A DNA stretch of 64,000 nt. Origin: an uncultured Microbulbifer sp. Lineage in GTDB: Bacteria; Pseudomonadota; Gammaproteobacteria; Pseudomonadales; Cellvibrionaceae. The position numbers were made by a program, and so were the translations under genes. Positions 7,243-45,577 of this stretch are shown here, piece after piece. Under the pieces are notes generated by a model. That model was not told the origin of the DNA, did not search any database, and saw only the letters and a program-made list of their open reading frames with translations. Every line of letters begins with the position of its first letter. The stretch's first letter is position 1. The stretch spans positions 1-64,000 of the forward strand of contig NZ_CANMKV010000004.1 in assembly GCF_947498635.1 (NCBI RefSeq), read 5' to 3'.

Positions 7243-7322
7243 CATTGATTTACAAGACTTTATATGGCGGTGGGGCAGGGATTCGAACCCTGGGACCTGT
7301 TACAGTCAACGGTTTTCAAGAC
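7243..7322. other. attL, left attachment site
   Basis: 80 bp identical to 41570-41649. It includes the 3' 58 bases of tRNA-Ser (7265-7322) and 22 bases beyond the CCA. Identity stops at 7322, where the right copy continues into the 5' half of the tRNA and this copy continues into phage DNA. Confidence 0.9.
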
Positions 7323-7400: not shown

Positions 7401-8447
7401 CTATTGATCACCCGCGTTGACACTTTGTTGACACTTTTCCAAGCTACTAAGGGCGCTTTTGCTAACTGCATCTTCCAAATGCTCGGGGGCCAGGTGGGCG
7501 TAGCGCATGGTCATCTCCATGGTGGAGTGATCCAGTATTTTGTTCAGTCTTAATAGGTCTCCGCCATTCAACATGTAATGACTGGCGAAAGTATGGCGAA
7601 GTATGTGTGTCGCTTGGCCTCTTGGTAAGGTCAGGTTTGCTCTCGCGACGGCTTCCTGGAAGGCACGGAAATTGGTGCCGGGGAAAAGACGGCCAAACTT
7701 TGGGCGGCCGGTTAATATCTCTGCTTCTAGTTCTTTGCTGATTGGAATACTGCGATTCTTGCCATTTTTGGTGTCAACGAACTCTATCTTACCGTGATGG
7801 ACTCGCTCAGTATCCAGGTTTTCAGCTTCCGACCACCTTGCCCCTGTAGCCAAACAAATTCGGGTGATCGTTCTTACATTCCGGTTTCTGGCATTGAGGA
7901 GGGCATCATCTAAAGCTTGTAGCTGTTCGATATTTAAGAAGCTAAGAGGAGGCTCTTTTACTCGGAGCTTGGGCACCCCCTTCAAGGGGTTGGGTAGAGT
8001 CCATTTCTTTAGCGCAATCAGCCGATTGAAAACCGCATTTAGGTAGGTCTGTTCATGGTTGATAGTTCGGGCGCAAGGTTGTCGGCCCTGATCGTTTGGA
8101 GCTTCTAACCGCCCCTTACGGTAGAGAATCCAGTCCTCAGCAGTAAAGGTGACCGCGCGCGGATCACCCAGCCACTTTACAGTATTTTGGAGATAGTTCA
8201 GGCGCCCGGAATGGTCTTTGAGCGTGTGGCCGTGCAATGTGTACCATTCCTCCACCAAGCTAGAAAGCGGGCGCTTATCTCGTTGCGGGGGCACCCATTC
8301 TCCTTTGTCAGCAGAGGCAAGCTGGGCACGCTCCCAGCGAATCCCCTCCGCTTTGGTATCGAACGATTTGCGGACACGGCGCCCGCCGCGCCCTTGTGGC
8401 TGTATATCTACTTGCCAGCGTCCGCTATCAAGTTTCTTAATCGCCAT
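7401..8447 (-). CDS. int: Prophage tyrosine-recombinase integrase
   Basis: 348 residues from MAIKKLDSGRW, the usual beginning of P2/K139-type integrases; a longer frame to 8471 exists but is not needed. Catalytic residues are R204 (ATGARWSE), H281-x2-R284 (HILRH), H307 (LDHS) and Y316 (MRYAHL). The N-terminal arm-binding domain is about residues 1-55 and the SAM-like core-binding domain 60-165. It lies next to attL with its 3' end overlapping an arm-type repeat, and overlaps the upstream HTH gene by 11 bp. Target is the tRNA-Ser(UGA) 3' end. Confidence 0.95.
   Translation of the reverse strand: MAIKKLDSGRWQVDIQPQGRGGRRVRKSFDTKAEGIRWERAQLASADKGEWVPPQRDKRPLSSLVEEWYTLHGHTLKDHSGRLNYLQNTVKWLGDPRAVTFTAEDWILYRKGRLEAPNDQGRQPCARTINHEQTYLNAVFNRLIALKKWTLPNPLKGVPKLRVKEPPLSFLNIEQLQALDDALLNARNRNVRTITRICLATGARWSEAENLDTERVHHGKIEFVDTKNGKNRSIPISKELEAEILTGRPKFGRLFPGTNFRAFQEAVARANLTLPRGQATHILRHTFASHYMLNGGDLLRLNKILDHSTMEMTMRYAHLAPEHLEDAVSKSALSSLEKCQQSVNAGDQ
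7414..7438. repeat. Integrase arm-type site, left (phage side)
   Basis: Tandem TTGACAC-TTTG-TTGACAC inside the last codons of int. The same motif, slightly changed, lies at 41491-41511 on the other side of the prophage core. Pairs of direct repeats either side of the core are what arm-type sites look like. Confidence 0.6.
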
Positions 8448-8769
8448 CCTGCATTTCCAGAAAAGTAGCATCGGTAACTAAACCAATGCCTATACGCACC
8501 ACCAGCAACTTGCAAAAGTCACTCTTGCTTTGCTCCAATTGTTCTAAAGAAACTTTGCCACCGTAAACCACCCAGGGCAGAAGCTCAGGCATAAGGCGCC
8601 CAATCTCGGCAAATACCTCTTCTTGAATACGAGAGGTTCCGTATTCAATATTTTTAACTTGATGAACTTTTATATTTAGTTTCGTCGCGAAGTCCGCCTG
8701 CGTAAGACCTACCGCCTCTCTAACTTTCCGCAGCCTCTTTCCCGCGCTGTCCATCAATTGCGCGTTCAC
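8437..8769 (-). CDS. HTH protein, copy 1 of tandem triplet
   Basis: 110 residues with an XRE-like helix-turn-helix in the first half (KRLRKVREAVGLTQADFATKL, then VHQVKNIEYGTSRIQEEVF). The C-terminal half is in the same layout as its two upstream neighbours (xELLxWxVYxGxVxLxxL). It is the most diverged of the three. It overlaps int downstream and the next HTH gene upstream by 4 bp, so they are one leftward transcript. Position next to int fits a lysogeny repressor or relative. Confidence 0.75.
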   Translation of the reverse strand: MNAQLMDSAGKRLRKVREAVGLTQADFATKLNIKVHQVKNIEYGTSRIQEEVFAEIGRLMPELLPWVVYGGKVSLEQLEQSKSDFCKLLVVRIGIGLVTDATFLEMQDGD

Positions 8770-9110
8770 TTTAAATCGTTATCCCTTATTAGATCCTCGG
8801 GAAAGTACTCTTCAGGTACTAGTCCAGCGTCAAACCGAGCTGCAATGAATTTGCAATACTTGCTGTCGCTATTGCGCAATTCTGGGAGGTCAACAGGCCC
8901 CTCATAAACAAACCACTTCAGTAACTCTGGGAAGTTTTCGCCTATTTTCTCATAAATCTCTTCGGTAACACGGTTCCGTTTGTATTCAATATTTTTCAGT
9001 TTTGACATTTCAATGCCTAGGAAACTCGCAAACTCCCTCTGAGTTAAGCCAATTAGCTCTCTGATGATTCGTAAACGGTCACCGGTTTTTAGTTTCTGAC
9101 TATTCCTCAT
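8766..9110 (-). CDS. HTH protein, copy 2 of tandem triplet
   Basis: 114 residues. HTH GDRLRIIRELIGLTQREFASFL followed by KLKNIEYKRNRVTEEIYEKI. From FPELLKWFVYEG to the end it is almost identical to copy 3, also at DNA level, including LRNSDSKYCKFIAARFDAG. The leaders of copies 2 and 3 share GAAGAGGCGC/AAAGAGGCGC. Duplication followed by change in the recognition half is the simplest explanation. Function as repressor is inferred from location and fold. Confidence 0.78.
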   Translation of the reverse strand: MRNSQKLKTGDRLRIIRELIGLTQREFASFLGIEMSKLKNIEYKRNRVTEEIYEKIGENFPELLKWFVYEGPVDLPELRNSDSKYCKFIAARFDAGLVPEEYFPEDLIRDNDLK

Positions 9111-9201: not shown

Positions 9202-9540
9202 TCAATCGTTATCCCTTATTAAATCCTCGGGAAAGTACTCTTCAGGTACTAATCCAGCGTCAAAGCGAGCTGCAATGAATTTGCAATACTTGCTGTCGCT
9301 ATTGCGCAACTCTTGGAGGTTGATCGGGCCTTCATAGACAAACCATTTCAGCAGCTCAGGGAAATTTTTCCCCATTGCTTCATAACACTCTTCCGTAACT
9401 CGGTTTTTCTTGTACTCCGCATTTTTCATTGGCATCAGATCTACACCTAGCAGATCTGCAAACTCTCTCTGGCTTAACCCTGTTAGCTCCCTGATCGCAC
9501 GTAATCGATCACCGGCCCTTAGCTTTGAAATCGTTCCCAT
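9202..9540 (-). CDS. HTH protein, copy 3 of tandem triplet
   Basis: 112 residues, first gene of the leftward immunity transcript and closest to the control region facing the Cox-like gene. HTH GDRLRAIRELTGLSQREFADLL; C-terminal half nearly identical to copy 2. In P2-like phages this position belongs to the C repressor, so this copy is the best candidate for it. Start ATG at 9540; the purine-rich GAGG lies rather far (about 14 bases) from it. Confidence 0.8.
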   Translation of the reverse strand: MGTISKLRAGDRLRAIRELTGLSQREFADLLGVDLMPMKNAEYKKNRVTEECYEAMGKNFPELLKWFVYEGPINLQELRNSDSKYCKFIAARFDAGLVPEEYFPEDLIRDND

Positions 9541-9775: not shown

Positions 9776-9988
9776 ATGAATGACTACTCAATACCTCCAA
9801 TCAAGTCCCCGGTTTGCACCCAAGAGCAGTACGCAATAGATGCGGGTCACACGTTGAGTACTGTGCGGGCACAGGTTGATCGAGGCTATTTGCCAACAAT
9901 CAAAATCGGCCGCTATCGCATGATCAATCTTTTGCAGCTTTCGCGCATGTGCCTAGAGGCTGACCCAGCTAAGCCCAAGCAGAAGTAG
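9776..9988 (+). CDS. Small HTH protein, probable Cox/excisionase
   Basis: 70 residues with a MerR/Cox-like short helix-turn-helix: EQYAIDAGHTLSTVRAQVDRGYLPTIKIGRYRMINL. The layout (HTH, then turn with GYLPTIKIGR wing) is typical of phage excisionases and Cox proteins. Good ribosome site AAAGGGA before the ATG. It is the first gene of the rightward early transcript, opposite the repressor-like genes, where Cox lies in P2-like phages. It should direct excision and repress the lysogenic promoter. Confidence 0.75.
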   Translation: MNDYSIPPIKSPVCTQEQYAIDAGHTLSTVRAQVDRGYLPTIKIGRYRMINLLQLSRMCLEADPAKPKQK

Positions 9989-9998
9989 GGTGTGCGCT

Positions 9999-12674
9999 AT
10001 GGACTACAGCGCAATCAATCGCGACGTGCTAGAAACTCTGAAAAACGACCATAGCCTAAAGCTGAAGCAATCTGGGGTCGGTGATAAAGAGGTGTTGCGC
10101 GGCATTTGCCCAAGCTGTGAAAAGAAAACGCTTTGGATCAAGATTAATAAGCCGATCACTTTGCGTTGTGATCGCGAGGAAAAGTGCAGTTACGAAGAAA
10201 GGGTGCGGGATCGCTACCCGGACCTTTTCGAAAACTTCTCCAAGCGCTTTCCATCAAGCGATGAAGACCCCAAAGCTACGGCGCGAGCCTACTTATCCAT
10301 TCAGCGCGGGTTTCCCGTCGCTGATATTGAAGATTGGTTTGAGCAGGGGTTTTACAAATTGCCGGATGGCTCCTGGGCAGAAACAGTACGTTTCTTTCTG
10401 TTTGGAGGCGAGAAGGATTACTGGGAACGTATCGTTGATAAACGGCATGTAAAGAAAGCGGGTAAAAAAGCCCGCTTTAAAACCGGTACCAGCTATGCCG
10501 GAAAGCACTGGGCACCACCTGGGCAAACAATCAAACCCATGGAAAAAGTCTTCATTGTTGAAGGAATTTTCCACTGTATCGCCATGTACTTAACAGGCTA
10601 CAAAGCGGTTTGCGCTTTCTCATGTTCCAACTTGCCGAGAGAACTGATTAAAGAAAATAAAGGCCAGGGCATTATCTGGCACTTGGCATACGATGATGAG
10701 CCCGGTGCGCGGAACCATGTGGCCAAATACTACAAAGAACTCAAGGACCAAAATGAAACGGTAGAAGTTGCGCAGACTGGCAGTAGCAAAGATTGGGACG
10801 ATCTTTATAGAGATGGTCTGCTTAATGACGAAACTATTAAGAACTGTATCTGGCGTGGTCGCGTTTTTGTTGCTGAAACACCAAAGCGTAAAGCTTATGC
10901 GCAGTATGGATGGAAACCATTTGGCAAAACCATCATTGAGCATAATGATAAATTACACTCCGTAAAATTTTCCCTGGACGACTTTAACAAAGCCAGTGAA
11001 GGAGAATCCTATAAGTGGGGCTTCTCCTGGGATGCCTTTAATCAGGCTGCCAAAGCAGAGCAGATTTCTAACTGCGTTCCTAAATTCCAGTACACAGAAA
11101 TCGACCGCCTAACCAATGAGCGCCGCTACTTTTTTGCTATCAAGAAATCGGGAACCAGTCGCAGCTACCTCGGTGCATTTTCCCCCAATGCATTATCCGA
11201 TCCTCGCGCCTTTGGCCTCGCTCTGCTTTCGCATACAGACGGCGGCAGCTTTGAGGGCGGGGCCGGCGATTTAAAAATTCTCAAGTCTCGTTGGCTAGAC
11301 GGTGAGGTTAACCGGGTAACGACCTTGCCACACATGGGATTTGATGAAAATACCCGGGCTTATATCTTCCCAGGTTTCGGTTATCAAAACGGCAAATTAA
11401 TTACAGCCAATGAACACGGCTTTTTACAGCAGGGCGATACCGCCATTAAAACCACCCTGGAAGGAATGCCGCTTCATCACTGCGATAAATTTGACGGAAG
11501 CTGGTGGCTGGACTTTGTAAAGGTGTTTCACCTAAACGGTATCGCCGCCTTGGCTTACTTCACCGCGAGCCTGTTTGCCCGTCAGATCAAGGAAAAACAC
11601 CAGGCGTTTCACTTTCTGGAAATTACTGGTGATCCCGATGCTGGTAAATCCACCCTGATTCGGTTTGTCTGGAAATTACTGGGGCGCGACAACTACGAAG
11701 GTATAGACCTGCTAAGTACTTCAACGTCCAGTTACGGGCGTAACTTGGGCAAGGTTAGCAACCTTCCGGTAGTGGTCATTGAGAGTGATCGAGAAACCAG
11801 CGGCGATACTGGGGGCCGTGCTGCAAAATCTTTTAATTGGGATATTTTCAAAAAGGTTTATGACTTAGATGGTGTTATTGACTCAAAGGGGGTGAAGACC
11901 AACGACAATAAAACTCATGATCGGATCTTTCGTGGCAGTTTGGTGATTAGCCAGAATGCCACGGTACAGGCATCGGCGGCCACGCTCTCACGTATCGTCC
12001 ACCTCCACTGCACCACTGCCCACAAGCGTGCAGAAAACCGCCCTCTGGCGGATCGCCTCAAACGCGAGCCGGTAGAAAACCTGGCTGGGTATCTTCACCA
12101 GGTGCTTACTCATGAGACAGAGTGGCTATCTCACTTCTTCAATGCCTTTGAAAGCCACCGGGCAACCCTAACCACTGATGACAGCATTAACCAAGGCCGG
12201 ATTATCGATTGCCATGCCCAACTGATGGCAGCGGTAGAAGCCCTGCAAGTCATCCTGCCAGATTTTGAGACTCCTTTAATAAACCAGGTGCAAGAATACC
12301 TGCTGGAGCGCGCACGGGACCGACAGCGCCGTTTAAACAAGGACCATCCGATCATTGAGCAGTTCTGGGATACCTATCACTTTATTAACGATCAAGTGGT
12401 TTATGTCGAAGATGAACATGGAAAGCGACATGTAAACACTGATCGCCTGAACCACAGCATCGATCCCGCCTTAATCGCAATCAACCTCAACGAGTACATG
12501 GAACTCTGCCGCAAACGCGGCCAGGAGCTGGTGCCTGTGGCGGAACTGAAGCAGTTGTTCTCTACCAGCCAGCGCTATCCGCTGGATGGTTACAAGCGGG
12601 TTCGGTCGAAGCGGGAAGAGAAAACTAGGCCCTGGTGTTGGGTATTCAAAAGAACCGGCGGAAGTGGTCGCTAA
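9999..12674 (+). CDS. Phage primase-helicase (replication initiator)
   Basis: 891 residues from ATG 9999; a GTG nine bases earlier is also possible. N-terminal zinc ribbon (CPSC near 36-39 and a second Cys pair in CDREEKC), a TOPRIM-like strand VFIVEGIFHCIAMY near 184-197, and a C-terminal helicase-type ATPase with Walker A GDPDAGKST near 544-552 and an acidic Walker B-like VVVIESD. The combination of zinc ribbon, primase and ATPase is that of P4-alpha-like replication proteins. Directly downstream lies the GGGACA iteron field, a natural binding target. Acts in phage DNA replication in the cytoplasm. Confidence 0.85.
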   Translation: MDYSAINRDVLETLKNDHSLKLKQSGVGDKEVLRGICPSCEKKTLWIKINKPITLRCDREEKCSYEERVRDRYPDLFENFSKRFPSSDEDPKATARAYLSIQRGFPVADIEDWFEQGFYKLPDGSWAETVRFFLFGGEKDYWERIVDKRHVKKAGKKARFKTGTSYAGKHWAPPGQTIKPMEKVFIVEGIFHCIAMYLTGYKAVCAFSCSNLPRELIKENKGQGIIWHLAYDDEPGARNHVAKYYKELKDQNETVEVAQTGSSKDWDDLYRDGLLNDETIKNCIWRGRVFVAETPKRKAYAQYGWKPFGKTIIEHNDKLHSVKFSLDDFNKASEGESYKWGFSWDAFNQAAKAEQISNCVPKFQYTEIDRLTNERRYFFAIKKSGTSRSYLGAFSPNALSDPRAFGLALLSHTDGGSFEGGAGDLKILKSRWLDGEVNRVTTLPHMGFDENTRAYIFPGFGYQNGKLITANEHGFLQQGDTAIKTTLEGMPLHHCDKFDGSWWLDFVKVFHLNGIAALAYFTASLFARQIKEKHQAFHFLEITGDPDAGKSTLIRFVWKLLGRDNYEGIDLLSTSTSSYGRNLGKVSNLPVVVIESDRETSGDTGGRAAKSFNWDIFKKVYDLDGVIDSKGVKTNDNKTHDRIFRGSLVISQNATVQASAATLSRIVHLHCTTAHKRAENRPLADRLKREPVENLAGYLHQVLTHETEWLSHFFNAFESHRATLTTDDSINQGRIIDCHAQLMAAVEALQVILPDFETPLINQVQEYLLERARDRQRRLNKDHPIIEQFWDTYHFINDQVVYVEDEHGKRHVNTDRLNHSIDPALIAINLNEYMELCRKRGQELVPVAELKQLFSTSQRYPLDGYKRVRSKREEKTRPWCWVFKRTGGSGR

Positions 12675-12745
12675 TCCTCCAGTTTGTATTTTTTTTGAGC
12701 TTGCCAGGTGGGGAGAAAAATAGGGGGGAAGGGTTAGAGAAAGGC

Positions 12746-13060
12746 GGGACAAAGCGGGACAAGGTAATAAGAGAGAGAAAAATCTATATATATCAATAAG
12801 TTAATAGGGTAATAGCAATGGGACAATATCGGGACATTGATGGGACAGCACGGGACATAGTGTTTGGGACAAGTTACCAACAAGTCACTAGTTTTGGTAA
12901 CAGCCCAAAACTCCGAAAAGCCAGTAACCGCGGGACCTACAGCGAAACGGTGCGTGGCGTGTCCCATTTTGTCCCAAAAAAAATGGGACAAAGTGAATAC
13001 TCTACAGTCCGCATAAAACCTAACTTCCTAAATGAAATAAACGCCCTGTCCCGTTGTCCC
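12746..13060. repeat. GGGACA iteron field, candidate phage origin
   Basis: Twelve exact copies of GGGACA in about 315 bp. Forward copies begin at 12746, 12756, 12820, 12831, 12842, 12852, 12866 and 12985; reverse copies (TGTCCC) at 12960, 12970, 13047 and 13055. A variant GGGACC is at 12932. Many neighbours are spaced by 10-11 bp, one helical turn. An AT-rich stretch (12763-12819, including TATATATATCAA) sits between two groups of forward copies. Location right after the primase gene supports an origin. An open frame here (12818-13114) is made of the repeats and is not counted as a gene. Confidence 0.72.
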
Positions 13061-13106
13061 GGCTTTTTTTACCCCCTCCGCGCATTTTTCTGCACAGGAG
13101 GAACAA

Positions 13107-13343
13107 ATGAATAACCAGCCCAACGCATGGTTGCCCCCGCTGATCGGTGAGGCTGCGGACACCAACAGCGAGTCCCACCGCCGCAACTGCCTCGCCTGGC
13201 ACCTGCTATGCACCCGCACCCGGCCCGAGATAAAGCAATGGCTAAAGAAACAGAGCAAAGGCATGGCCGAGGATATGCACAGCCGCTTGAACCAACTGAA
13301 ACACCAGGTGTGGGAGATGCGCCGGGAGGCTGAAGGGCTATGA
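13107..13343 (+). CDS. Small phage early protein, unknown
   Basis: 78 residues, start ATG with AGGAGG just upstream (13096-13101 area). Contains a central stretch rich in Arg/His/Trp (SHRRNCLAWHLLCTRTRPEIKQWL) and a charged helical end. No known family recognised. Stop overlaps the next start (ATGA), so it is translated with it. Early-region small proteins of this type often act on host or phage replication, but there is no specific evidence. Confidence 0.65.
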   Translation: MNNQPNAWLPPLIGEAADTNSESHRRNCLAWHLLCTRTRPEIKQWLKKQSKGMAEDMHSRLNQLKHQVWEMRREAEGL

Positions 13344-16770: not shown

Positions 16771-17826
16771 TTACGTAAACTCCGGCTTATCAAACCCAAT
16801 CCTTTTCCCCTTCGGCAGCCACTCATTCAGCTGCATAAAAACATCCTGCATTGGCAGTACCTCGTTCTCGTAATATGCCCGGGAGATTTTTTCGATATCT
16901 CCAAAGCCGCCGGAATTTTCGGGCATCACGCCAGCCAGGGCCGGTTGAATTCTCCACATACTGAGTACGTCGTTGCGGGTGAGGTTCTTGATTCGCTCGA
17001 ACTCGTCTTTGGTGGCGATATCGCCAACTGGGATAATCTGCACCCCTTTCTCTTTGCCGTCGGGGATATTCAGGTACATAGAGCGGAAATTGCCCACGCC
17101 CTTGCTGCCCTGGATCTTCTCCTTAATAGCCTTTTCATCCTCTTCGGAAAGCCTGCTGTCGGTGGTGTAGAAGATGTAGCCCATGTGTGCGCCGTTGTTG
17201 TAGTACTTGCGCCGGAATAGGGTGCTGTCCTCATTGAGCAATACCGACTGCACACCGCCCAGGTATTGAGGTCTGCCGTATATCTGCTGGGTGGGATCGT
17301 ATTCTTTCAGCTGGATCACTTCACCGGGTGCAAACACGATGGGCTCGCTAGTGGGGCGCAGCATACAGAAGCGGTCTTTCTCTCTCATACGACGCATATT
17401 GAGCGCGGGTAGGTGTTGCAAGCGCAGGATATGATTGAAGCGGTTATAGATTTTCTTGAAGTACGCGTGGCCAAATACCGAGTGATCAAAACCTGCATTC
17501 GCCAGGCATTCCGGTTTGAGCGTGTTGGAGGCTTTGAACCACTGGCGCAACCTGTTGCGCTTAAAGTAGGGGATTGTGCCGTGGTGGGCGTTGGCTCCTA
17601 ACAGGTTGGCCAGGCCGCTCTGGCTCACTGGCGGCACATAGTAGTCGCCGCTGGGTTCTAGGAAGGTGCCCAGATAATCCCCCCAGTTGCCCCCCAAAAC
17701 GGGCTCAGGATCGCCGAAGCTAAACAGGGTAGGGCTATTGCTGCTTGTCTCCGCAGACAGGGCTTTGCTGTTGCTTGAGGCCTGCCGGTTCCCGCCCCTG
17801 GAAAACTGTTTTCTTTTCTTGCCCAT
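16771..17826 (-). CDS. Portal protein (P2 gpQ type)
   Basis: 351 residues. The PBSX/P2 portal family is recognised from VPPVSQSGLANLLGANAHHG, FGHAYFKKIYNRF, GEVIQLKEYDPTQQIYGRPQYLGG and the C-terminal LTRNDVLSMWRIQPALAGVMPENSGGFGDIEK. It forms the dodecameric ring for DNA entry at the head vertex. Leftward with the terminase gene 13 bp upstream, the same P-Q order and direction as in P2. Confidence 0.92.
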   Translation of the reverse strand: MGKKRKQFSRGGNRQASSNSKALSAETSSNSPTLFSFGDPEPVLGGNWGDYLGTFLEPSGDYYVPPVSQSGLANLLGANAHHGTIPYFKRNRLRQWFKASNTLKPECLANAGFDHSVFGHAYFKKIYNRFNHILRLQHLPALNMRRMREKDRFCMLRPTSEPIVFAPGEVIQLKEYDPTQQIYGRPQYLGGVQSVLLNEDSTLFRRKYYNNGAHMGYIFYTTDSRLSEEDEKAIKEKIQGSKGVGNFRSMYLNIPDGKEKGVQIIPVGDIATKDEFERIKNLTRNDVLSMWRIQPALAGVMPENSGGFGDIEKISRAYYENEVLPMQDVFMQLNEWLPKGKRIGFDKPEFT

Positions 17827-17838
17827 GGATTGTTCCCG

Positions 17839-19584
17839 TTAGTTACTGGCAAAGGCCACCGAGGATTTGCGCTGCTTGCGGTTGAGGGGTTCGTTGCTGA
17901 GGCCGTGCATAATGGCCCAGGCCACATCCGCGTGGCCGGTGGCGTTCTTGCGGTTGGCGGTGTAGGTGATGTGGTCGCCGCTGGTGGTGGTTTGGTGAAT
18001 CTGTAAAAAGGCTTGGGGAATGTCGGTGTGCTCCGCATCCCATTCGATACGCTGGCTTTCTACTACATCCTGGGTTTTCAATACCAGGTTGGTTTTGGTT
18101 TCTAGGCCGTAGGTGATCGGAGTTACGCGCGGGTAGAACTCCTTGACCATCTCATACACACCGTGGCCGGGGCCGGTACAGTCAACGCCGATAAACTGCA
18201 CATTGTATTTTTCGGTCAGCTCCTTAATGCGGTTGGCTTGGTACTGCCAGGCGCGATTACGCATGACAATTTTTTCCAGCACACGAAACTTGCCGCCCTC
18301 TTTGAGCGGTGGTGCCAGCACTACAATGGCGGCTCCGTCGATACTGCGTGAGGGATCATAGCCAATCCAAACCGGATGATTACCGTAGGGCCGCTGGTTG
18401 TTTATCTTGTAATCTTTCCAGGCAATATCAACATCAACAGCGGCAGAGAGTAGGTCTTCCAGCTTAAAGACGGAAAGTCCCGCCTCCATAAAGGCGCACA
18501 TGTATTTGTTATTAAAAGCCGCCTTGCTGTTCTCAACCTTGAGCGCTTCAATATCAAAAAGATCGCACCCTTGCTCCTCAGCATCGACAATGGTAACAAT
18601 ATTTCGCCATATCCTATCTGGCCCGAGCTTTCCGTGTTTCAGTGCCTCGTGGCTAAGGTCAAAATCGACGCTCTTTTTCGAGTTATCTTTAAAGACCTTT
18701 CCACTCCACATATCGTAAGCACTATGGCTTTTTATCGAAGGCACAGAAAAGTAGGTGCGGCGCCATTTTTTATGGGATGCCATACCGGACGCTAGTTCGT
18801 TGGTCCGCTCAAAATCGGGAATCCAAAATACTTCATCTGCATAGAAGTGGCCGTGATAGCCTTGCGCGGTGCGGCCATTGGTGGAAACGAAGCGCAGCTC
18901 TGCACCGTTGGACAGCGCAATAAAGTCGGCCCCTTTTAATTCAATATCAAAGTATTCACGGGCAAATTTGATAATATACGCTTTAAATATCTCGGCTTGG
19001 TTACGGCTTGCGGAAAGGAATACCTGGTTATCCCCACTAAGTACCGCATCTTCGAAGGCCTCCCAAGCAAAGTAATAGGTTGCGCCGATCTGGCGGGATT
19101 TCAGGATGAAGCGGGTGCGCTGGTCTTTGTTGTCGTGCCAGCGGTGCTGGTATTCATAAAATAATTCTTTGCGGATCTTTTCCAGCTGTTCCGCGGTAAT
19201 CTCACTGATATCGTTTTTAGCTTTCTTCTTTTTGCCTTTGCCGTCTCCGCGCTCTCCTCGGGAGGCCGCCGCCTTCTCCTTGGCCGCGCGGGCTTTCTTA
19301 ACATCAATGCCCGCCAGCTTATCCAGCAGATTGCTAAGGCGGTCTATCTCGGTGAAATCCTCCTTAGTCTTATTGGGCTTTTCCACCAGCACAATAAGGC
19401 GCCGGGAGGTGGCTTGCTCTACAGTTTCATGTTGCAGCATCTCTTCCCAGTGGCCTTTCTCCGCCCACTGGTAAACCACCCGTGCGTTATTCAGGTTTAA
19501 CTGTTCCGCGATCTCTCGCGCACTTAGTCTGCGCAGCCACATCAGCTTTGCAGCGGTTTTGATTTCTTCAGAGTACTGTGCCAT
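17839..19584 (-). CDS. Terminase large subunit (P2 gpP type)
   Basis: 581 residues. N-terminal HTH (RRLSAREIAEQLNLNNARVVYQWAEKG), then a Walker A-like SRQIGAT (LKSRQIGATYYFAWEAFEDA) and Walker B YADEVFW, typical of P2-type terminase ATPases. The C-terminal nuclease part carries IGYDPSRSIDGAAIVVL and FIGVDCTGPGHGVYEM. Packages phage DNA and cuts cos ends with gpM. Divergent from the scaffold gene. Confidence 0.92.
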   Translation of the reverse strand: MAQYSEEIKTAAKLMWLRRLSAREIAEQLNLNNARVVYQWAEKGHWEEMLQHETVEQATSRRLIVLVEKPNKTKEDFTEIDRLSNLLDKLAGIDVKKARAAKEKAAASRGERGDGKGKKKKAKNDISEITAEQLEKIRKELFYEYQHRWHDNKDQRTRFILKSRQIGATYYFAWEAFEDAVLSGDNQVFLSASRNQAEIFKAYIIKFAREYFDIELKGADFIALSNGAELRFVSTNGRTAQGYHGHFYADEVFWIPDFERTNELASGMASHKKWRRTYFSVPSIKSHSAYDMWSGKVFKDNSKKSVDFDLSHEALKHGKLGPDRIWRNIVTIVDAEEQGCDLFDIEALKVENSKAAFNNKYMCAFMEAGLSVFKLEDLLSAAVDVDIAWKDYKINNQRPYGNHPVWIGYDPSRSIDGAAIVVLAPPLKEGGKFRVLEKIVMRNRAWQYQANRIKELTEKYNVQFIGVDCTGPGHGVYEMVKEFYPRVTPITYGLETKTNLVLKTQDVVESQRIEWDAEHTDIPQAFLQIHQTTTSGDHITYTANRKNATGHADVAWAIMHGLSNEPLNRKQRKSSVAFASN

Positions 19585-41569: not shown

Positions 41570-41649
41570 CATTGATTTACAAGACTTTATATGGCGGTGG
41601 GGCAGGGATTCGAACCCTGGGACCTGTTACAGTCAACGGTTTTCAAGAC
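41570..41649. other. attR, right attachment site
   Basis: 80-bp identical partner of attL at 7243-7322. It contains the 3' 58 bases of the intact tRNA-Ser gene, from the anticodon loop to CCA, plus 22 bases downstream. Confidence 0.9.
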
Positions 41650-41679
41650 CGCCGCTTTCGACCACTCAGCCACCCCACC
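41592..41679 (-). tRNA. tRNA-Ser (anticodon UGA)
   Basis: 88 bases on the minus strand. Acceptor stem GGTGGGG / CCCCACC, discriminator G and encoded CCA. Anticodon loop CTTGAAA inside GGTCTTGAAAACC gives anticodon UGA. Long variable arm and T-arm GGTTCGAATCC are as in serine tRNAs. The prophage entered its 3' part and restored it. Confidence 0.95.
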
Positions 41680-41844: not shown

Positions 41845-44775
41845 TTAGCCGGCTTCTGCAGAGTTGCGGTTAGAATCCGCGTCTGCCTGGGCTACGCTTC
41901 GAGCCAGGCGAGGGTCGTTAGCCGGGCGGGTGAGGGGGCGAGGATTGTGCTCAATGGCCGCTGGTTGGGCGGTATCCAGCGGCTGCTGGATGCCGACTTC
42001 ACGGTGCTCGGTAACGATTGCCAGCTCAAGTAATGGCTTGGGATTGTTACGAGGGTCATTACCTGCGCGACCGCGGGTTGCCGGGGAGGTGATTTCTTCG
42101 GAGGCTTTGGCCTCAGCGGTCATTACCTCTTCCCTGGCGAGAGCGTTGCTCAGCTCTTCCTTTGCCTTAGCCGCTTCACTGGCCTCTTGCAGAGCGGTCT
42201 CTTCCGCATCCTCCGGCGATTCCACGGCAGAAGGTGTTTCTTCAGCTGCTTTATTTGCCGTTTGACGGGTGGTGGATCGCTCTTCTTGGGCAGCGGTGGG
42301 TGCTACTTGTGTCGCAGAGGTTGCCGTTACTTTGGGTGCCTCCACGGCAGTGGCCGCCGGTTTCGCTCTTTCTTCGGTATTTGCTACAGATTTTGCTTCC
42401 TCTTGTCTTGTGGTGGCTTCTTCCGCAATCGGGGTGCGTGCGGGGGCCTCTACAGAGGGTTTGGCTTGGCCTGCCTGTGCGGGTTTCGATGGCCTCCGTT
42501 CTTTGCGCTCGGTTTTACGCTTCGGAGTTTCGCTTGCTGGCGTCTCACTAGCGACATTTGTGGCAGTGTCCCTGGACTTTCTGGCTTCACTTTCAGCTTC
42601 GTCAATGGCTTCATTAACTTCGCGGTCCAGCTCTTCCTGGCTTTGGGCAACGGCGGTAGCGGCAGTATTCTCCGGGCGGCGGCCTCGGCGGCGAGCCTGC
42701 GGGCGGCCGCGTACATTGCTGGGGCGGCGTGCCGGGCGCTGTTGATCGGTGCTTTCGTCTACCTGGACACTGCTTTCTGTGGCGCTGCTTTCAGTGATGT
42801 TGCTGCGATTTTCGTCTTTGCGACGATTGTCTCCGCTGCGGCGGCGGCGACGGCGGCGCTGCCCTTCTCCACGCTCTGCTCCACCTTCACGATCATCAAA
42901 TTGCTTGGAGGTTTGTCTGGCCTCTCGCTGATCTTCGCCCTTAGCATCTTCGCGACGATCGTCTTTGCGGCGCGTCTGACGCTCACCGCGATTGCTGCGG
43001 TTACCACTGCGTTGATTGCGATTACGGTTGCGGTTGCGCTGGTAGTCTTTACCTCGGTTTTGAGACTTTTGATGCTTTTGGGGCTCTTCCTCTTTATTGG
43101 AGAAAAGCTCAGCGATGGCACTGATCAGGCGACTGAACAGGCCCGGTTCCGGTTTTTTCTCCGGAGTGGGCGCCGGTGTAGTGTGGGCGATCGGCTTCAC
43201 CGCAGCCTGGGCCGGGGCGCGCTGGGGTTGCTCTTCTTTCTTGGTAACGGTTTCCTCTGCACTTCCGGAAATCTTGTAGGAGGTTTCCAAGGTAGCGGTA
43301 TCGTCATCGCGCAGGCGCTGAACTTCAAAATGCGGTGTTTCAATGTCCGCATTGGGTACAACAACCACTCGGGTCTTGTTGCGGGACTCGATTTGGGAAA
43401 TGGCTTTGCGCTTCTCGTTGAGCAGGTAGGTGGCGACATTCACGGGGGTGATTGCGCGAATCTCTGCGCTGCGCTCTTTCTTGGCTTCTTCTTCCACCAG
43501 GCGAAGGATAGAGAGTGCCAGCGATTTAGTGCCGCGTATGGTGCCCTGTCCACTACAGCGGGGGCAGACACGGAAGGTGGTTTCACCTAGAGACGGACGC
43601 AGGCGCTGGCGCGACATTTCCAAAAGGCCAAAGCGGGAGATACGGCCAACCTGTACGCGTGCGCGGTCCATGCTGAGGGCCTTTTCCATACGCTTCTCAA
43701 CTTCGCGCTGGTTGGACTTGCTTTGCATGTCAATGAAGTCGATGACGACTAGGCCGCCCATGTCGCGCAGTCGCAGCTGGCGGGCAATTTCGTCAGCAGC
43801 TTCGAGGTTGATGTTGCGCGCGGTTTCCTCAATATCGCCGCCCTTGGTGGCGCGAGAGGAGTTGATGTCGATAGAAATCAGCGCTTCGGTGACATCGATA
43901 ACGATGGAGCCGCCGGAGGGGAGTTTGACCTCGCGTTCGAAGGCCGTTTCAATCTGGCTTTCGATTTGGTAGCGGTTGAACAGCGGAATAGAGTCTTCGT
44001 AGAACTTAACCTTGTGGCTGTAGTGGGGCATTACCTGGTCGGCGAAACCTTTTGCCAGCCCGAAGGAGTCTGCGTCATCGACAATCACTTCACCGATATC
44101 GTCGCGCATGTAGTCGCGGATAGCGCGAATAATTACGTTACTTTCCTGGAAGAGGAAGTGTGGGGCTTTAGAGGTGTCCGCCTCGTCTTTTATGGCGTTC
44201 CACAGTTGTAGAAGGTAGTTGAGATCCCATTGCAGCTCCTCGCCGCTGCGGCCAACACCGGCGGTGCGCACGATAATGCCCATGCCTGAGGGGACATCTA
44301 CGCTTGCCAGGGCATCACGCAGCTCGGAGCGTTCGTCGCCTTCGATGCGGCGGGAGATGCCGCCGGCGCGGGGGTTGTTTGGCATCAGGACCAGGTAGCG
44401 CCCGGCGAGGCTGATAAAGGTGGTCAGAGCGGCCCCTTTGTTGCCGCGCTCCTCTTTATCTACCTGAACGATGACTTCCATGCCCTCTTTGACGACATCT
44501 TTAATCTTGATGCGGCCTTCGATGTCCTTGGGCTGTTTGAGGAAGTATTCACGGGAAATTTCTTTCAGGGGGAGGAAGCCGTGGCGCTCTTCACCGTAGT
44601 CGACAAAAGCGGCTTCGAGGGAGGGTTCTACACGGGTAATTTTGCCTTTGTAGATATTGGCTTTTTTCTGCTGACGGGTGCGGTTTTCAATGTCCAGGTC
44701 GTAGAGCCACTGGCCGTCGACCAGGGCTACACGCAACTCTTCAGGTTGGGTTGCGTTGATTAGCATTCTCTTCAT
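41845..44775 (-). CDS. rne: Ribonuclease E
   Basis: 976 residues from [21 protein letters not shown], the standard RNase E start; 35 extra upstream codons in the open frame are not part of it. S1 domain about residues 35-125 ([18 protein letters not shown]). Catalytic core contains [18 protein letters not shown] and [11 protein letters not shown] with the magnesium-binding aspartates. The zinc link is CPRCSGQG. The C-terminal ~470 residues are a disordered scaffold, Arg- and Glu-rich ([28 protein letters not shown]) as used to build the degradosome. It leads mRNA decay and rRNA/tRNA processing. Confidence 0.96.
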
Positions 44776-45577
44776 GCGTGTCGTTTTCCTTGCGTTGCGC
44801 AAAGGTATGACACCGCTGTTTGCAGACTTGCTTGTGGGCCACCAAATGGAGAGGACCAGATGGCGGGGCAGGGAAATCAAAAGCGCTGTCTCTGCCGCAA
44901 ACTCAGTCTACGCGGCTTATTTGAGACGATCGTTCGCCTATAGTTCTCACTGCAAAAACTCCGGATAAACGCTGTTGTGGTGCTATCCGTTGGTACTTTG
45001 AGTACCTTTTTTCCTTGAGTACCTTTTGTTAGTACTGCCCTGTACCAGGGCCGTGGATTTCCATGGCCGGGTTGGGCGCCACCCTTCGGTCAGTTTCAAG
45101 CTGGGTGGCAAGGTTTGCGTCGTTGTTACTGGCTCTGCAGCTCGGCTTTTGGCCGGTGCCTATCTTCTTTTACTTTGTTCACCAGGTTATTGGAAACAGT
45201 TGAACCCTGGTTGCCAGTTCGGTCGCTGGCATCATCATCTGCAGAGCGGGACGCAAATTTTATGAGTTGTCCTTTCAAGCGCTGCGGGTTGCGGCCCGTC
45301 TTACCTTCGCGATAGTTACCCACTTAACTGTGGGCTGTTGTGCCGGTGAGGCCCCTTGAGATTCTCGTTTTGGGGTGCGCTCATCAGCTAAGTTTTTTAT
45401 CAATGACGCGGTATGCCCGCGCACTGGCCGAACAGCGGTATTTTCTCTGAAACCTTGGCTATCTCTTCATGTGGGAAGCCGCCAATGGCCGAAAACCAGC
45501 CGAATCCAGGCCGGCCGAATATAGCACGGGCAGGGTGGTGCTTCAATTGTCCTGGCCGCGGCGCTATGATGCGCGTC
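44776..45577. promoter_or_regulatory. rne leader and rne/rluC divergent region
   Basis: About 800 bp without a credible gene, large for this kind of neighbourhood. RNase E genes have long 5' leaders that the enzyme itself cuts to control its level, and this stretch is the place for one. GAGTACCTTTT is repeated in tandem (45001-45011 and 45018-45028); read leftward it is AAAAGGTACTC twice. The rluC promoter should lie at the right end. Confidence 0.5.

Follow-up and report, generated by a model that had tools for sequence, protein, structure and literature searches.

A dense field of short GGGACA repeats (iterons) lies directly downstream of a predicted primase-helicase gene in a prophage of an uncultured Microbulbifer sp., at positions 12746–13060 of the 64,000-nucleotide stretch of contig NZ_CANMKV010000004.1 analysed here (the window). 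With a probability of roughly 87%, judged from sequence comparison, we read this field as the replication origin of a replicon resembling those of phage-inducible chromosomal islands (PICIs) and Staphylococcus aureus pathogenicity islands (SaPIs), carried by a P2-like prophage. Established here are the existence of the field, the place and layout that it shares with many relatives, concerted switches of its letters, a near-clade correspondence between one protein residue and the repeat, and the predicted fold of the initiator. A first-pass annotation had proposed a phage origin used by the primase-helicase encoded just upstream; comparison, rather than experiment, supports this proposal well, through the conserved place and layout, a co-varying part of the protein and a predicted structural kinship to SaPI Rep.

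The iteron field and its conservation

A recount returned, just as first described, twelve exact GGGACA/TGTCCC copies in the ~315 bp of the field; eight are on the plus and four on the minus strand. The whole window holds 26 copies (shuffled expectation 25.95), 12 of them within the field. Chance clustering was rejected, as the densest 315-bp stretch across 300 first-order Markov simulated windows held four copies. That the repeats are an accident of chance or an artefact of coding sequence is practically negligible as an explanation: besides this count, their place is conserved in relatives, and a one-base length difference between the window and a related locus, L046, falls inside the field.

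The field begins 72 bp past the primase-helicase stop codon at 12674 and is intergenic, ahead of an operon that starts at 13107. A left outer pair of plus-strand iterons (12746–12761) is followed by a stretch of 78% A+T over 50 bp (12766–12815), the proposed melting site, which confirms the AT-rich piece noted earlier between iteron groups. Within it, TATCAATAAGTTA (12791–12803, plus strand) matches what we take to be the consensus of integration host factor (IHF). A direct array of five plus-strand copies (12820–12871; steps of 11, 11, 10 and 14 bp) brings the plus-strand iterons between 12746 and 12871 to seven. The right inner group (12960–12990) reads minus, minus, plus, with copies at 12960, 12970 and 12985, and the right outer pair (13047–13060; copies at 13047 and 13055) lies on the minus strand, opposite in orientation to the left pair. 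A thirteenth, imperfect copy at 12932 reads GGGAC followed by C. Steps along the field are 10, 64, 11, 11, 10, 14, 94, 10, 15, 62 and 8 bp; five of the eleven measure 10–11 bp, which makes the "largely" of the first-pass annotation slightly too strong. Between the two iteron groups, an inverted repeat, GTTACCAA...TTGGTAAC (12873–12901), forms part of a segment (12873–12936) with an AGTAACC(A/G)CGGG-like element, and similar elements occur in some relatives. No DnaA box (TTATNCACA or TTWTNCACA) was found in 12601–13150, and the GC skew, which climbs across most of the prophage, is uninformative as an origin signal.

Relatives of the primase-helicase were collected at several distances. Within the genus, which the window genome shares with genomes G004, G006 and G041, five complete genes encode proteins 75–95% identical and seven more 40–50% identical, and the proteins of phages phi3, BIBS67, phita81A/2 and PaBSM-2607-JFK are 41–43% identical. 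A viral-contig search gave 356 relatives and a further search 433, the best 80 being kept from each; 77 of 79 newly fetched viral loci were readable, with L086 (incomplete) and L124 (8 bp of downstream sequence) dropped. One 6-mer recurred at least eight times within 400 bp 3' of the primase gene in 64 of these 77 loci, a density reached elsewhere in one locus (2903 windows scanned). Primase genes occur in 21 phage records, besides four plasmid records outside the sample, and ten of the 21 were examined: four carry a field, and none was seen after the gene in the other six (L032–L037), nor in L051. A class-wide search with the family phrog_1139 had matches in 218 of 369 genomes. Of those listed, many were short and confined to the Toprim region, and 7 of 14 control genomes matched too; the 30 loci of this search (L056–L085) were set aside.

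The layout is likewise shared. Left-type pairs with 9–10 bp spacing are common at the same place, and outer pairs typically lie 60–75 bp off the inner groups, the right-hand pair being inverted. Over 86 distinct fields, the commonest steps (among those of at most 80 bp) are 9, 10 and 11 bp, with 128, 183 and 91 cases. Of 90 fields, 25 contain a strict version of the presumed IHF consensus, where 2.4 would be expected; it lies 117–123 bp after the stop codon in 16 of the 25 and at 135 or 186–243 bp in the rest. Two loci depart from the usual gene structure. In the second prophage of genome G044 (L045:2323–5063), the primase is split into two overlapping frames (query residues 4–622 and 609–894), and the iteron field is present. 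In L049 (3920–4414), a second open reading frame (ORF) between primase and field repeats the primase C-terminal domain, with 36% identity to residues 767–889, and may be a reader domain standing alone; past this ORF lies the field, eight copies of GGACACA.

Iteron letters and the initiator C-terminus

The primase-helicase gene (9990–12674, plus strand) matches a single PHROG family, phrog_1139 (DNA primase, 1.1e-217). An ATG at 9999 is a likelier start than 9990, because many relatives align at MDY in our protein alignment (A1). The adjacency of field and gene that had been claimed holds, and the translation contains CxxC pairs, an EG..DD stretch and GDPDAGKST, the latter two presumably Toprim-like and Walker A motifs. 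By structure comparison the primase part is of DnaG type and fused to a helicase. Among solved structures, the helicase half comes closest to SaPIbov1 Rep and Cch; the 519-residue chain of the Cch structure aligns only from residue 313 onward. The predicted structure thus combines a SaPI Rep/Cch-like helicase fold with a C-terminal DNA-binding-like domain. AlphaFold2 models place a winged-helix-like domain, the proposed iteron reader, at residues 787–887 (12348–12650, plus strand), with its wing formed by strands 865–870 and 882–887 (12582–12650, plus strand). Foldseek returned no match below E 0.001 for this domain, and a profile search of PDB sequences gave only five matches at E 0.17–0.34 (two DnaG primases and three thioredoxin reductases). 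DUF927, the family of Cch and SaPIbov1 Rep, was absent from the Pfam matches of the window protein at E ≤ 1; for 18 members, 25 of the 33 Pfam families were listed, and it was not among these. Either terminus had been suggested as the binding domain; the C-terminal one is the likelier iteron binder.

The repeat letters differ between lineages, and they change in concert. In a set of 89 loci (rows) with a field score of at least 13, which contains many near-copies and leaves out L045 with its split primase, the iterons are GGGACA, GGAACA, GTGACA, GGGCACA, GGGAACA, AGCAAC, GGTTACC, GGTTAGG, GGTTCGG, GGTTCAG, GGAAGG, GGAATG, GGTATG and GGTAAT, the commonest being GGAACA (59 rows). Between the window and L053, the third iteron base differs at 12 of 12 homologous sites in both orientations, while other core letters are kept at 57 of 60 positions and spacer letters changed at 90 of 348. 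A third-base difference likewise separates L046 from L045, both prophages of G044, at 12 of 13 sites. For L087 and L093 the count is 9 of 11; outside base 3, their cores show 0 changes in 55 positions and their spacers 64 in 354. L042 has switched at 5 of 8 sites relative to L043, and both L093 and L042 look like intermediates of iteron switches. Two iteron spellings stand side by side 3' of the primase in L042 and L044 (ACCGAACC with ACCTAAC, and ACTGAACC with GCACC), perhaps as switches in progress or as two reader modes.

Residue 872 (codon 12603–12605) lies in the wing within a K-V-x-S motif, of which S873 is invariant in alignment A1. Across the 89 rows it is R in 64 (63 with an ACA-bearing core, and L048 with AGCAAC), H in seven (all GGAAGG), Y in six (all GGAATG), W in one (GGTATG), D in one (GGTAAT) and K in nine (GGTTACC, GGTTAGG, GGTTCGG or GGTTCAG). 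The remaining row, L159, in which the residue reads S and the C-terminus is apparently out of frame, was tabulated but excluded from the residue–repeat rule. At base 5 of GGAANx, R goes with C, H with G, and Y or W with T, a near-clade correspondence; the wing residue of PaBSM-2607-JFK is H. Seven weak-field rows were also examined: Y is present in L126, L127, L128 and L131, where GGAATG outnumbers GGAAGG; K goes with GGTAAGG in L164; L114 combines H with a mixed field (five ACCTTC and five ATTCCA); and no field was seen in L163. A tree built by a quick method, with the last 60 residues left out, requires two or more changes for H/GGAAGG and likewise for Y/GGAATG, a pair of gains being the simplest history in each case; the argument for Y is soft because its second group (L126, L128, L217) consists of weak-field loci.

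A second set of 25 new rows (11 with a field score of at least 11, L217 weak, and 13 without a clear field) set bounds on this correspondence. R rows carried ACA in three of three cases (L196, L236, L238), and K rows carried GGTAACC (L177), GGTTAC (L179) and GTGACCTAA (L191). Other rows went against the rule: GGTAAT occurs with Y in L180 and with L in L190, TGTAAT with N in L189, and W is paired with GGGCAGGAT in L181 and with GGTTAG in L186. A universal residue-to-repeat rule was therefore rejected, and a single residue is not the whole code. The GGGACA and GGAACA groups are told apart by 16 positions, of which five are in the wing (865, 866, 877, 879 and 880) and the others elsewhere. Neighbouring wing residues may follow iteron base 3.

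Residues 861–885 were compared with the whole protein in primase pairs of 75–98.5% identity, which are not independent of one another. The divergence of this segment is 3.0 times the overall one in the 43 pairs with different iterons (median 1.7), and 1.6 times in the 274 pairs with the same iteron (median 1.06). The DNA of L046 is closer to L053 in 8 of the 12 windows that precede 11790 and again after 13141, and closer to the window sequence in 8 of 8 windows from 11790 to 12990; the last 44 residues of its protein are those of the window and 84% like those of L053. Since affinity switches over this interval, C-terminus and field seem to travel together. Weighing against this, L046 still groups with the window on the tree that omits the last 60 residues. 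The partial correlation with iteron distance (30-residue segments, 57 rows), higher at residues 121–150 (0.42) than at 871–894 (0.38) and 721–750 (0.33), is not decisive alone.

These data bear on whether the field is an operator or regulatory array through which a repressor, or the primase itself, controls the operon starting at 13107. Its intergenic position before that operon would suit such a role, and iteron initiators often double as repressors. We nevertheless consider it improbable: the layout includes inverted outer pairs, an AT-rich piece and an IHF-like site, and the field letters vary with the primase C-terminus, as the binding site of a separate repressor would not be expected to do. 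If the field is instead an origin, a readable specificity code linking wing residue and core base, with concerted iteron switching as an escape from incompatibility, is possible, at somewhat less than even odds. In three of three multi-prophage genomes (G044 with two prophages, G006 with three, G004 with two), each prophage has a different iteron, so switching may let related phages evade each other's initiator, although chance could produce such differences in this small sample.

Prophage setting and proposed initiation

The prophage spans ~34 kb between its attachment repeats, identical 80-bp direct repeats (7243–7322 and 41570–41649), the right one overlapping a tRNA-Ser (41592–41679). The minus strand carries a tyrosine integrase (7404–8471; Pfam Phage_integrase, 5.5e-18) and two repressor-like helix-turn-helix proteins (8769–9110, matching PHROG transcriptional regulators, and 9205–9540). 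On the plus strand come a Cox-like small protein (9776–9988; phrog_575, 3.7e-6, ranked third behind two families without a known function), then the primase-helicase and small genes. A P2-like portal and terminase large subunit (16774–19584, minus strand; phrog_68, phrog_3746) belong to a P2-type virion set of portal, terminase, scaffold and capsid (phrog_68, 3746, 73, 70 and 74), sheath and tape measure; we take these five families to be markers of P2-like phages (Peduoviridae). Near the right attachment site, eight GCCGCC copies in ~430 bp (42441–42661) fall within the limits of a large ORF on the minus strand (41845–44880).

This setting makes it very improbable that the field serves the partition of a plasmid-like prophage, as a centromere-like or incompatibility site. 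Short clustered repeats would fit such a site, and one small phi3 gene is annotated as a partition protein ATPase. The 80-bp repeats in tRNA-Ser, however, flank the element as they would an integrated prophage, and no ParA/ParB family occurred among the matches of ten early-region proteins scanned.

Taken together, a model for an origin at 12746–13060 can be drawn. After induction, the fused primase-helicase would use its C-terminal winged helix to bind the GGGACA iterons, with the wing probably reading the core sequence, as the covariation suggests. The 10–11 bp steps may phase the bound molecules, and a bend may form at the IHF-like site. If it behaves like SaPI Rep, the initiator could load as rings on the two oppositely oriented iteron groups; these rings would then open the AT-rich stretch at 12766–12815 and unwind outward, and the N-terminal DnaG-type domain would prime. 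The model touches a puzzle of multi-site origins, namely how an initiator changes specificity when a dozen sites must follow. Near-identical phages on both sides of iteron switches make initiator–origin coevolution directly testable with natural proteins and DNA. The model also suggests a replication mode for a P2-like branch with a primase-helicase in place of gpA, and a simple means of locating origins in such phages.

Comparison with known replicons

P2 replicates by a gpA rolling-circle mechanism. The window prophage shares the virion module of P2; unlike P2 with its gpA endonuclease, it has a primase-helicase as its replication gene, and no P2 rolling-circle gene was found in the part of the prophage ORFs scanned. 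Phages phi3, BIBS67, phita81A/2 and PaBSM-2607-JFK, of Peduoviridae type, carry the same primase family and a field in the same place in other letters (15–16 copies of GGAACA or 11 of TGGAAG); their feature tables annotate no origin. By its annotation, phi3 also has a reverse transcriptase gene outside the integrase (L030:1–1074). No description of such iteron fields in P2-like phages appeared among the open-access matches listed, a coverage that mostly leaves out subscription papers.

An origin of P4 type (alpha protein with ori/crr) rather than SaPI/PICI type is unlikely. The fused primase-helicase with a C-terminal DNA-binding-like domain would fit it, as would the P4 type I iteron, which we take likewise to hold a GAACA core; on the other side, SaPIbov1 Rep and Cch are the nearest solved structures over the helicase half, in a comparison made without P4 alpha. 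Cch is not known to carry a fused primase.

The PICI/SaPI-like reading draws on an arrangement already described: an origin directly 3' of the primase/initiator gene, with iterons flanking an AT-rich stretch. The SaPI Rep C-terminal domain is reported to recognise the downstream iterons (PMC7581432), and three iterons are reported for the SCCmec (staphylococcal cassette chromosome mec) Cch2 site, compared with twelve in the window field. Like a PICI/SaPI replicon, the window has its candidate origin 72 bp 3' of the initiator gene, and a pair (12746–12761) precedes the AT-rich stretch and the array from 12820. Unlike SaPIbov1 and EcCICFT073, satellites without a full capsid and tail set, the element is a P2-like phage with its own head and tail genes, from portal to tape measure, and its primase part is of DnaG type. 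The "new type" of the first-pass annotation is thus right only in part: the arrangement is not a new class, and what looks new is that a lineage of P2-like phages uses this PICI/SaPI arrangement, and does so with iterons that switch.
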